Assembly: GCA_028685875.1 (NCBI GenBank) | Contig: JAQUDD010000001.1 | Coordinates: forward strand, 96,209 to 160,208 | Direction of reading: 5' to 3' | DNA length: 64,000 bases | Source of the DNA: Candidatus Absconditabacteria bacterium | GTDB taxonomy: Bacteria; Patescibacteriota; Gracilibacteria; Absconditabacterales; Absconditicoccaceae | In this document: positions 1,765 to 41,291 of the stretch, piece after piece | Layout: each line of letters begins with the position of its first letter | Position numbering within the stretch: the first letter of the stretch is position 1 | Notes under the pieces: generated by a model | The model's database searches: none | What the model was told of the DNA's origin: nothing | Seen by the model: the letters and a program-made list of their open reading frames with translations, nothing else | Program-made: the position numbers and the translations under genes

Positions 1765-3453
1765 TTAAAAATTTATTTTGTCTGAGGATTCTATAATTTG
1801 CACCATGGCCTCCCTTGGGAGCTGTGTTTTTATTTCTTTCCAGTCGTTTCGAGTTCTTCCTAGTTCTATTTCTCTCTCCTCTGTATTTGTTTCTGATTGG
1901 ATTAGTAGCTTTCCCTTCGTCTCAGAGATGTTTGTTATACTTTCTTTTGGCAGGAAGATATTATCGGTATTGAGAGAGAATATTACGGATGCCACACTAT
2001 ACTCCATTTGAGTTTCTTCTAGAAGTTCAATCTCTAGACTATAGATTCCTTGCTCATTTGCAATAGGACTCTTTGTGAGGAGGACTCAGCTGTGAGCATT
2101 ACTTCCATCATAGATGAGTATTTCTTCTTCCGGTTCAACAAGTAGAAACTCTTCGAGACTTAGATTTACTTTAATCGTGGGGGAATGGTTTTTTTGGATG
2201 CTAAAGAGAGGAGTTCCTGTATATATTTCTTGTCCCTCTTCTACCAATATTTCTTTTATGATACCGTCACTACTTGCTCTAGCTGTAAGTTTATTATAAA
2301 GGTTATATGCTTTTTCGTATGTTAGTCTTTGGAGTTCGAGCTCATGTTGAAGCTGTTGTTGTTTTGCGGAGTTTGTGTTGAGGAGGAGTTCATATTCGAT
2401 TTTCTTTTTTTCTAGTAGATTTTCTATGGTGTATATTTCTTGTTCTTTATTCTGTGTTTGCGTTTGATACCAAAGTTCTTCAGCCTGAAGCTCTTCATCT
2501 GATTTTACTTGGGTGAGAGTAAGGCTTTTTTGGTAGAGTAAAAGAAAATTTTCTTTCTGTCTTTGGAGGAGACGTATTTCTATTATTATCTCACTTATGA
2601 ACTCTTCTAGTTCTGTAATTTCTGAGCTTTGATATAGGATTAGTTTATTTGTTTCTAGTATGTTTTCTACTTGTTGATATCCCTCAAAGAGTTTTTGGTA
2701 GTATTGTTGTAAAAGGGCATTCTCTTCGGAATGAGAGAGGGTCTGGATTGTGGTTAGATACCTCTTTAGTTCTTCATTTGTTTTGAGGATTGCTTCTTTA
2801 TTCTGGCTCTGAATGCCATAAAACTGGTTGGCATTTATTAGCTTATTGATTGTTTCTTGTGTTTGTTTGACCAGCGTGATTAGTTTTTCCTTTTCATTGG
2901 ATGATGATCATAGAAGGAGCTCTTTGTTGTTTTGTTCCTCTTTCCTGTTGTTTTCTTTTTCGTTGAGAAGGTTTGCGAGTTCTTGTTCAGCATTTTTGAG
3001 CTCTAAAGTAAGGAGAGCGATTTCCTGTTCTCAAAGTTCCTCTGTACGTTTACTATTCTGTTCGTGAAGTGCTAATTCTTGGCTGATAAGGTGGGATTGT
3101 TCTTCTCCTTGTTCAAGAGTTGAGCTATATTGTTTGTTGTTCTCTGCTATATTTATGACGGGCTGTCCATTTTTTATTGCAGTTCCTTCTTGAATTCTAA
3201 CGTATTCAATTTTTCCCTCTACTTCTGCATAGACTATAATCTCTGGATTCTGGATTATCGATCCTATTTTTGCATGGGGAAAAGTTTTAGAGAGTTCTTC
3301 GATGCTTTGAAAAGTATTTTCTTCTCCGATTTCTTCTGCTTGTGTTGTTAAATTTTGGTAAAATAAAACTCCACTCCAAAATATTCCAATGACTATTCCA
3401 ATGACTATTCCAAGGCTGATTCGTAGTATATGAGTTGGTTTTAGTTTTTTCAT
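1765..3453 (-). CDS. HlyD-like membrane fusion / efflux adaptor protein
   Basis: 562-residue protein with one N-terminal membrane anchor (about residues 11-32), a beta segment EVEGKIEYVRIQEGTAIKNG near residue 78 that looks like the first half of a biotinyl-lipoyl-type fold, a very long coiled coil rich in Glu, Gln and Leu (about 105-385), then ARASSDGIIKEILVEEGQEI, the second half, and a C-terminal beta domain. This layout is that of HlyD/EmrA/MacA adaptors that link inner-membrane transporters to export. No transporter partner is adjacent, so the substrate cannot be told. Two TGA codons (after TEEL and LLL) read as Gly keep the frame open. It lies 17 bases upstream of the FKBP lipoprotein gene, probably in one operon. 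Confidence 0.75.
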
Positions 3454-26537: not shown

Positions 26538-27713
<1,176 letters not shown>

Positions 27714-27749
27714 TCAGAAGATTAGATAATAAGATTACAGAAGATTTTA

Positions 27750-27777
27750 TTGACTTGTAGTGTGTAATTTATATATT
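27750..27777 (+). promoter_or_regulatory. Promoter of the GTPase-centre mimic RNA
   Basis: TTGACT (27750-27755), 16-base spacer, TATATT (27772-27777); predicted transcription start near 27784. The same TTGAnn-16-TATATT layout is seen before the RNA candidate at 48533. Confidence 0.7.
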
Positions 27778-27783
27778 ACTTTT

Positions 27784-27956
27784 TGTATTGTTTTTCAATA
27801 TTTTCTATAGGTTGGTTGGCTTGGAAGCAGCCATTCCTTAAAGAGTGCGTAACAGCTCGCCTATAGGGATTTTTTGAGAGTATTTGAGTTTCTATATTTG
27901 GAAAGAGGAGTTTTTCTCTATCTAACTGAATAGAAAACTTAGATACTCTCTTTTCT
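27784..27956 (+). ncRNA. Small RNA carrying a mimic of the 23S rRNA GTPase-associated centre (L11-binding domain)
   Basis: About 173 bases from a promoter (27750-27777) to a hairpin with T-rich tail. Bases 27805-27866 closely match the GTPase-associated centre of 23S rRNA: hairpin GGCTTGGAAGCAGCC (helix 43-like), CCTTAAAG, and hairpin GAGTGCGTAACAGCTC (helix 44-like), in rRNA order and spacing. Instead of the normal rRNA flanks, the element is closed by its own 7-base-pair stem CTATAGG/CCTATAG. Downstream, GAGAGTATTTGAGTTTCTAT (27876-27895) pairs with 27930-27950 around an inner AGAGGAG..CTCT hairpin and is followed by TTTTCT, a likely terminator. In ribosomes this domain binds protein L11 and elongation factors. 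No L11 gene is adjacent. It could be a protein-titrating regulator, a rRNA piece or a fortuitous relic. A 62-codon frame on the opposite strand is not supported. Confidence 0.65.
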
Positions 27957-27971
27957 ATTACCAAGAATGTC

Positions 27972-28023
27972 TGGATTGCCTCCCCGCAGCTTTGTGCGGG
28001 GTGCGGCGTAAGCTCGCAATGAC
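27972..28023. repeat. Palindromic repeat family A with internal GC hairpin
   Basis: GGATTGCCTCCCCGCAGC then TTTGTGCGGGGTGCGGCG and GCTCGCAATGACG. Family A ends flank an inner CCCCGCA/TGCGGGG palindrome. It lies between the small RNA and the NUDIX gene. Confidence 0.75.
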
Positions 28024-29045: not shown

Positions 29046-29648
29046 ATGCAACAGGTGATTTTGATTCATTGAGGAGATTGTTATCGTTCCAATGATGACT
29101 TTGCGAAGGCGATAGAAAAATGGGACTATAATCCTTTTGAGGAGAAAAAGATATGGAGATATGCCCTCGGAGAGAAATTTCCTTCGGGTTTTCAATATAT
29201 TGCTCCTCAAATGCCGAATAAAGATATGGCATCATATAACATTCGAGAAATCTGGTTTGAGAAACTTTTTCCTTATTTAGAGGGAAACCCTATTGTAATT
29301 GGTCATTCTTTGGGGGGACTTTTTCTTTCGAAGTATCTTGCAGAAAATACCTTTCCAATGAGCATCAGTCAGCTCTATTTACTTGCAACACCTTCCCCAG
29401 ACCTCTTTATTCAAGCATGAGAATATCTCGCTGATTTTCCTTATGAAGTTTCTCTTCTTCCTCATCTGGAAAAGCAAGTAGAGCAGATTTTTATTTATCA
29501 TTCGAAAGACGATTTAGTTCTTCCTTTTATTCATGGAGAAAGATTGGCACAATACCTTCCTTCGGCAAAATTTATGGTATTTGAGGATCGTGGGCATTTT
29601 AATCAAGCAGAATTCCCAGAAATAGTAGAAAATATCCTTAGTAACTAG
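29046..29648 (+). CDS. RBBP9/YdeN-like serine alpha/beta hydrolase
   Basis: 200 residues. QQVILIHGGDCYRS is the oxyanion-side loop with its first Gly encoded by TGA. PIVIGHSLGGLFLSKYL holds the nucleophile Ser, SKDDLVLPFIHGERL the acid Asp and FEDRGHFNQ the catalytic His, so the triad is complete. The size and motifs fit the small RBBP9/YdeN esterase group. Physiological substrate unknown. Start ATG 29046, stop TAG 29646-29648. Confidence 0.78.
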
Positions 29649-29663
29649 CATTTTTTCTTTGCC

Positions 29664-41217: not shown

Positions 41218-41291
41218 GCGGATATGATGTAGTTGGTGTAGCATAGCAGACTTCAGCTCTGCTTGTACGGGTTCAAGTCCCGTTATCCGCT
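41218..41291 (+). tRNA. UGA-decoding tRNA, anticodon UCA, glycine type
   Basis: 74 bases. Acceptor GCGGATA/TATCCGC, D stem ATGT/GCAT, anticodon stem GCAGA/TCTGC with loop CTTCAGC (anticodon TCA at 41253-41255), T stem 5 pairs with TTCAAGT, discriminator T. GCGGA start and T discriminator fit bacterial tRNA-Gly. It reads UGA codons, matching the glycine positions where TGA occurs in the window. It is the expected partner of UGA recoding in Absconditabacteria/Gracilibacteria. It is a normal elongator-length tRNA with a short variable loop, so not a selenocysteine tRNA. Confidence 0.95.

Follow-up and report, generated by a model that had tools for sequence, protein, structure and literature searches.

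The window locus

The window, by which we mean the whole 64,000-nt stretch of DNA that was analysed, lies on contig C11 in the genome of a Candidatus Absconditabacteria bacterium (G000; 1.03 Mb in 16 contigs). Genes of this genome read through TGA, and tgt is intact only when TGA is read as glycine. A tRNA-SeC with anticodon TCA is called by ARAGORN at window 41218–41291; because the genes read TGA through, its likeliest identity is tRNA-Gly(UCA), as used in genetic code 25. The RNA considered here has tgt, a NUDIX gene, AMMECR1, a DNA-3-methyladenine glycosylase, an HflX-like GTPase and ComEC as neighbours; these are ordinary chromosomal genes, and a prophage location for the window copy was rejected on that ground.

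Positions 1092–1149 of the Rfam model LSU_rRNA_bacteria (RF02541), which are the GTPase-associated centre (GAC), align without gaps to window 27807–27864 (38.6 bits, E = 1.9e-10, in a 321-base search of 27700–28020 only). A whole-window Rfam scan did not list the piece because this score is below the model's gathering cut-off of 50 bits. An earlier sequence-only reading of the window had proposed a GAC-like segment here, with helix-43- and helix-44-like hairpins (H43 and H44) in order and a new 7-bp closing stem, CTATAGG/CCTATAG. The model match establishes that the segment is real, both hairpins appear in order in the alignment and in the fold, and the stem is present (Table 1). Four pairs of this stem show two-sided changes among relatives, and the region 27780–27960 is much more stable than its shuffled versions (z = -5.7, 0/200). 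At the equivalent of E. coli A1067 the window has G (27823), as do seven of seven aligned relatives.

Table 1. Features of the free GAC locus, with positions in the window
Feature	Position	Strand	Basis
Possible sigma-70-like promoter, TTGACT-16-TATATT	27750–27777	+	10/12 matches; not above chance
Free-standing GAC module, minimal form: closing stem, H43-like and H44-like hairpins	27805–27866	+	LSU match, fold, covariation across eight loci
Closing stem P1, 5' strand CTATAGG, in place of 23S helix 42	27805–27811	+	Sequence, fold
H43-like hairpin	27812–27838	+	LSU model alignment; compensatory changes in relatives
Loop of H43-like hairpin, TTGGAAGCA	27821–27829	+	LSU model alignment
H44-like hairpin, GAG-TGCGTAACAG-CTC	27843–27858	+	LSU model alignment
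Closing stem P1, 3' strand CCTATAG	27860–27866	+	Sequence, fold, two-sided changes in relatives
Long imperfect hairpin with T-rich tail, possible 3' end	27876–27959	+	Fold; missed by terminator scan

The boundaries of the transcript are less clear than the sequence-only reading had suggested. Its near-consensus promoter has 10 of 12 matches, yet this is no more than chance expectation (2 matches found in the scan versus 1.1 ± 1.1 expected). Its hairpin terminator fares no better: nothing at the locus meets the criteria of the terminator scan, and what is there instead is a long, imperfect hairpin (27876–27950) followed by TTTTCTATT. With the promoter at chance level and the terminator scan negative, we regard the transcript ends of the window copy as no more than plausible. 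In four genomes (G020, G066, G002 and G003), relatives of the RNA finish with a compact hairpin and then a run of T.

The genome's own 23S gene is elsewhere, as had been claimed. It begins at window 63483, ~36 kb from the free piece, is complete at C11:159690–162621 (2444 bits) and is the only LSU match in the genome. It carries a separate GAC, and the suggested comparison of the two gives 84% identity over 45 nt; the GAC of the 23S gene reads GTTTGCTTAGAAGCAGCAATCC and the free piece reads GTTGGCTTGGAAGCAGCCATTCC, so that the loop of the window copy is not that of its own genome's 23S. Because the genome's 23S gene is complete and includes a GAC of its own, the free piece is not part of a split 23S gene, and a split or truncated gene is ruled out. 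The claim that L11 is not adjacent also stands: rplK is on a different contig, C6.

Relatives within the family

A pattern search covered 353 genomes of the class. Matches to the TTGG-type (G1067) loop are confined to the window's own family; A1067-type matches, among those listed, look like 23S. TTGG copies outside 23S were found at G002:C45, G003:C5, G020:C5, G020:C7/C15 (one place at a contig break), G066:C19, G066:C52, G031:C13 and G071:C7. Weak matches in G055, G030 and G061 were set aside as chance or unconvincing. The closing stem, H43 and H44 are kept in seven further loci of six same-family genomes. When the eight loci are aligned, 96.5% of cells are paired and 10 of the 18 pairs show two-sided changes, which none of 500 shuffles equals; sliding the partners abolishes the pairing and covariation signal, and RNAalifold also finds covariation across the eight loci. 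In the H43 stem, for instance, GGC/GCC is replaced by GGT/ACC in G066:C19 and by GCC/GGC in G020:C5. The window copy thus combines a covarying closing stem with H43 and an H44 element outside 23S, the features by which we delimit a proposed class of free GAC RNAs.

A covariance model run on 49 family genomes keeps the two kinds of copy apart, scoring free copies at 67–84 bits and 23S copies at no more than 57; it also picks up one degenerate copy, in G021. Full copies occur in 7 of the 49 genomes, so the RNA is accessory and patchy; it is nevertheless kept in sister genomes, a check that the sequence-only reading had named along with the covariance search. In G071 and G021, further stretches of 23S domain II are kept upstream and downstream of the GAC, and these two copies, both from one genus, look like longer, partly degenerate pieces of domain II. 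Specifically, G071 (L081, ~7980) and G021 (L377, ~1800) have CCAGACATGTAGCTAAGG upstream and CACCGAAGCTCTTGATCTC..GGTAG downstream. At ~60–80 nt upstream of the GAC, the copies in G020, G066, G002 and G003 share one more hairpin, which is conserved and whose loop is TGGCGYACGNGC or one related to it.

Several relatives have a mobile context. A serine integrase lies ~2 kb from the G066/G020 copy (PHROG 95, E = 3.7e-57), a terminase small subunit gene follows the G020:C5 copy (E = 4.9e-10), and accessory genes near the RNA are common to G002 and G020, which belong to different genera, at 61–87% identity. A loop that combines G1067 with ATTC is characteristic of 23S from Bacteroidetes. Since the window copy has such a loop, unlike that of its own 23S, and since relatives adjoin an integrase or terminase gene, it is most likely an acquired member in a TGA=Gly chromosome of Absconditabacteria/Gracilibacteria type.

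Free GAC RNAs in phages

The same kind of element is found in viral contigs. Three minimal free GACs of the Bacteroidetes type are present in IMG/VR: L082 (135 kb contig, between tmRNA and tRNA), L084 (321 kb contig) and L086 (159 kb contig), scoring 48–69 bits with model R1. Like these three, the window copy is without the H44 insertion and without the GGCGUAAYAGCACAC element that mark the long phage form. As a control, the H43 pattern of the own-genome type was searched in IMG/VR; its 7 matches all have a coding or repetitive look and no GAC context.

A scan of IMG/VR for the H43 loop TTGGCTTRGAAGCAGCCA gave at least 120 matches. Among the matches listed, only 1 of 82 loci examined is within a 23S gene, and a second element, GGCGUNNNAGCACA (commonest form GGCGUAAYAGCACAC), is found downstream in 84 of 117 fetched loci. 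This element lies 88–475 nt from the H43 loop and resembles the H44 loop of 23S (GCGUAAUAGC). Scanning in reverse, with the 3' motif CTTTTGGCGTAAYAGCACACC alone, is a non-circular test of the H43/H44 pairing. It returned 27 contigs: 13 were already in the H43 set, 11 are new and show an H43-like hairpin upstream of the motif, in several cases with a changed loop such as GGCATAGAAGCTGCC, and the fetched pieces of the remaining 3 end too early. Matches at L083, L085 and L087, and likewise at L234, L249, L257, L258 and L275, were rejected for a coding-like context without the helix-44 element. The match in Paenibacillus phage Pd_22F was counted as rRNA because its flanks are continuous and 23S-like.

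In most phage members, a large variable arm of 50–435 nt is inserted in helix 44. The closing stem, examined in 54 non-redundant phage loci, has a mean length of 8.5 bp, versus 3.0 with partners exchanged among the loci (at most 3.76 over 200 trials), and the outer H43 pair varies among T-A (16), G-C (13) and A-T (12). The stem that closes the insertion is flanked immediately by GAGU on its 5' side and by UUUGGCG on its 3' side. All 43 of 43 loci form its first pair (AT 18, GC 18, GT 4, TA 3), where swapped partners reach 36 at most; the third pair forms in 39 of 43, against at most 28 after swapping. The folding energies of three isolate phage RNAs are ordinary (z = -1.2, +0.4 and -0.4), and the support for the phage structures is therefore covariation, not stability. 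The most conserved part of the phage RNA is the loop, that is, its exposed surface. Within the insertion arms, GGCACCCCGTAAATGGTAAGGCTGA recurs in 10 of 45 loci and AGACCCTTAGAG recurs in those of XacN1 and GAP32; such recurrent motifs suggest a second conserved domain. The minimal form and the long form may go back to separate captures from 23S instead of a single lineage.

Isolated phages have the RNA as well, in matches that bear no GAC or rRNA annotation. They include Pseudomonas phages pf16, UNO-G1W1, Astolliot and Milchi, Aeromonas phage 4_4572, Xanthomonas phages XacN1 and XbC2, Cronobacter phage GAP32, Pectobacterium phage CBB, Serratia phage BF, several Erwinia phages and Acinetobacter phage ME3. 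Direct reading of the sequence shows both elements in pf16, 4_4572, XacN1, GAP32 and Astolliot; the other isolates have BLAST matches to one or both. Astolliot (L376, ~2850–3190) apparently has two long GAC-type RNAs, of differing subtypes, in tandem. The Bacteroidetes-type minimal form, when searched for among INPHARED isolates, gave rRNA contaminants only.

Several of the isolate copies are inside tRNA clusters; that of pf16 is between tRNA-Asn and tRNA-Pro, with the RNA expected at record positions 29402–29650 on the minus strand. Across IMG/VR, 33 of 78 loci have a same-strand tRNA within 300 nt, compared with 22% of random points in the same loci, and since this excess is modest we call the link to tRNAs moderate. 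ROOL and GOLLD RNAs share phage tRNA clusters with the GAC RNA at L251 and L221.

Interpretation

The GAC match is real, the genome's own 23S is intact and separate, free GACs recur at non-rRNA sites, and their stems covary. The proposal of the sequence-only reading that this is an independent RNA mimicking the factor-binding centre is thus well supported, by free GAC RNAs in sister genomes and in many phages. A closing stem, a helix-43 hairpin whose loop contacts factors and a helix-44 element would make up the core of the class; the window copy, its relatives and the three phage contigs would represent a minimal form, and most phage members a long form.

As to function, the isolated 58-nt GAC domain is bound tightly by uL11, loss of uL11 leads to a relaxed phenotype, and the isolated GAC is recognised alone; on these grounds we infer a decoy role. 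Such recognition is seen with TsnR, for which isolated GAC RNA is a substrate as the 58-nt domain or as a 29-nt hairpin (PMC9508554). In the RelA-bound ribosome, A1067 of the GAC loop stacks on the tRNA (PMC5829649), and EF-G binding to thiostrepton-domain oligonucleotides is cited in that paper (reference 27 of PMC5829649). Our preferred reading, to which we give about an even chance, is that the window RNA belongs to an undescribed class of free-standing GAC RNAs and acts as a decoy for uL11 and/or translational GTPases. The RNA would be transcribed, would fold like the known self-folding 58-nt GAC domain, and would bind uL11 and/or factors such as EF-G and RelA-type proteins; phages and integrative elements would spread it. 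For phages, the effect might be a changed host translation or a dampened uL11-dependent stringent response. Titration of uL11 or elongation factors is the best mechanism we can propose. Sensing of thiopeptide-type compounds, also suggested from the sequence, is disfavoured for the window copy: the crucial thiostrepton determinant is A1067 (PMC5829649), and the window copy and all seven aligned relatives have G there.

A more specific version is offered tentatively. A widespread, undescribed phage RNA family, with relatives in episymbiont-type bacteria, would mimic the GAC faithfully in trans to sequester uL11 or translational GTPases, whether of an infected or of a parasitised cell. The minimal copy in the present genome, whose loop is of the Bacteroidetes type, would in that case target the translation machinery of a partner and not its own.

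The main rival to the decoy is a substrate for enzymes attacking H43. Here the free GAC would be a shield in counter-defence, sacrificed to nucleases, rRNA modifiers or toxins with which the host targets helix 43/44, instead of titrating L11 or EF-G. The parallel would be with phage tRNAs that replace cleaved host tRNAs. We consider this reading rather unlikely. We know of no defence enzyme that cuts the helix 43/44 site of the GAC, and the helix-44 element and closing stem, needless for a hairpin substrate, are kept too. What speaks for a sacrificial substrate is the phage location, several copies being in tRNA clusters with tmRNA, ROOL or GOLLD, the strong conservation of the exposed loop, and the finding that the 29-nt hairpin is a better TsnR substrate than the 58-nt domain or 23S (PMC9508554).

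Alternatively, the window copy could be a dead fragment, a piece of 23S, perhaps of Bacteroidetes origin, that was inserted in the chromosome and is decaying. The Bacteroidetes-type loop, the patchy distribution and the G021 and G071 copies, so like degenerate domain II pieces, would fit. Decay is nonetheless improbable given the compensatory changes in 10 of 18 pairs with the loop retained among diverged loci, the new closing stems unrelated to 23S flanks and the terminator-like ends in relatives.

The remaining explanations have little to recommend them. That the RNA replaces or repairs in trans a missing or damaged GAC of the cell's own ribosomes is very unlikely; all GAC secondary-structure elements are present, but the own 23S is complete with its own GAC and the loop is unlike the native one. 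We think just as little of a cis-acting leader through which uL11 would repress a gene in autoregulation: a GAC-like leader would be a natural L11 operator, but L11 is encoded on another contig, the NUDIX gene downstream is on the opposite strand, the AMMECR1 gene is 600 nt off, and downstream genes vary among relatives. With rplK unlinked, an L11 leader is rejected. Least credible of all is a divergent 4.5S/SRP RNA, suggested by the word GGAAGCAGCCA common with the EF-G-binding SRP domain IV, by the decamer GAAGCAGCCA, which is in both and is tied to EF-G binding by 4.5S RNA (PMC11431127), and by the lack of any match to the SRP RNA model RF00169 in 59 genomes of the class. Against it, three features are specific to the GAC, namely the helix-44 element, the 9-nt loop and the LSU alignment; no GNAA-capped domain IV can be drawn, and most family relatives are without the RNA, whereas SRP RNA should be universal. 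SRP RNA is accordingly rejected, for want of a model match and for the wrong fold. In the 59 genomes (G000 and 58 relatives; controls were positive), SRP RNA itself is either missing or too divergent for RF00169.

No Rfam 15 family covers the free GAC RNAs, and we found no description of a phage GAC or 23S-like free RNA in the open-licence literature, in agreement with the sequence-only reading, which knew of no such free RNA. Free GAC RNAs, unannotated in dozens of bacterial viruses, appear to be an undescribed class of ribosome-mimicking RNA. If so, phages encode a piece of the ribosome as a free RNA molecule, and RNA mimicry would be a new viral route to tune or disturb host translation or the stringent response. 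Because the GAC is among the best-studied RNA folds (uL11, thiostrepton, EF-G, RelA), binding and function can be tested with existing assays and cultivable phages such as pf16.

Relation to known systems

The window RNA has the elements of the 23S GAC (helices 42–44; E. coli 1051–1108) in unchanged order: a closing stem, then H43 and its loop, then H44. It differs in being free-standing and outside any rRNA operon, in the new closing stem and in the G at 1067; phage members have, in addition, 50–435 nt inserted in H44.

With 4.5S/SRP domain IV the free RNAs have in common the GGAAGCAGCCA word and a link to EF-G (PMC11431127), but the fold is another, the helix-44 partner is in the GAC RNA only, and SRP domain IV is not the part matched by the LSU model. 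Like the L1 and L10 leaders, which mimic rRNA on ribosomal protein mRNAs, they place an rRNA-like protein site outside the ribosome; those leaders act in cis, whereas L11 is unlinked here. Phage T4 stable RNAs C and D are likewise non-tRNA RNAs of a phage tRNA cluster, and were rejected as class members because their sequences have no GAC motif.

There is a parallel in setting with ROOL (RF03087) and GOLLD (RF02032), structured non-coding RNAs that phages and prophages carry near tRNA islands (PMC12286853). The GAC RNA is also a structured non-coding phage RNA and is found in the same phage tRNA clusters. ROOL and GOLLD differ from it in sequence and architecture, form RNA cages and have no described GAC; their models have no match at the window or the phage GAC loci, and match elsewhere in two of the same clusters. 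If the present reading is right, the GAC RNA would be a third class next to ROOL and GOLLD among the unexplained RNAs of phage tRNA clusters.
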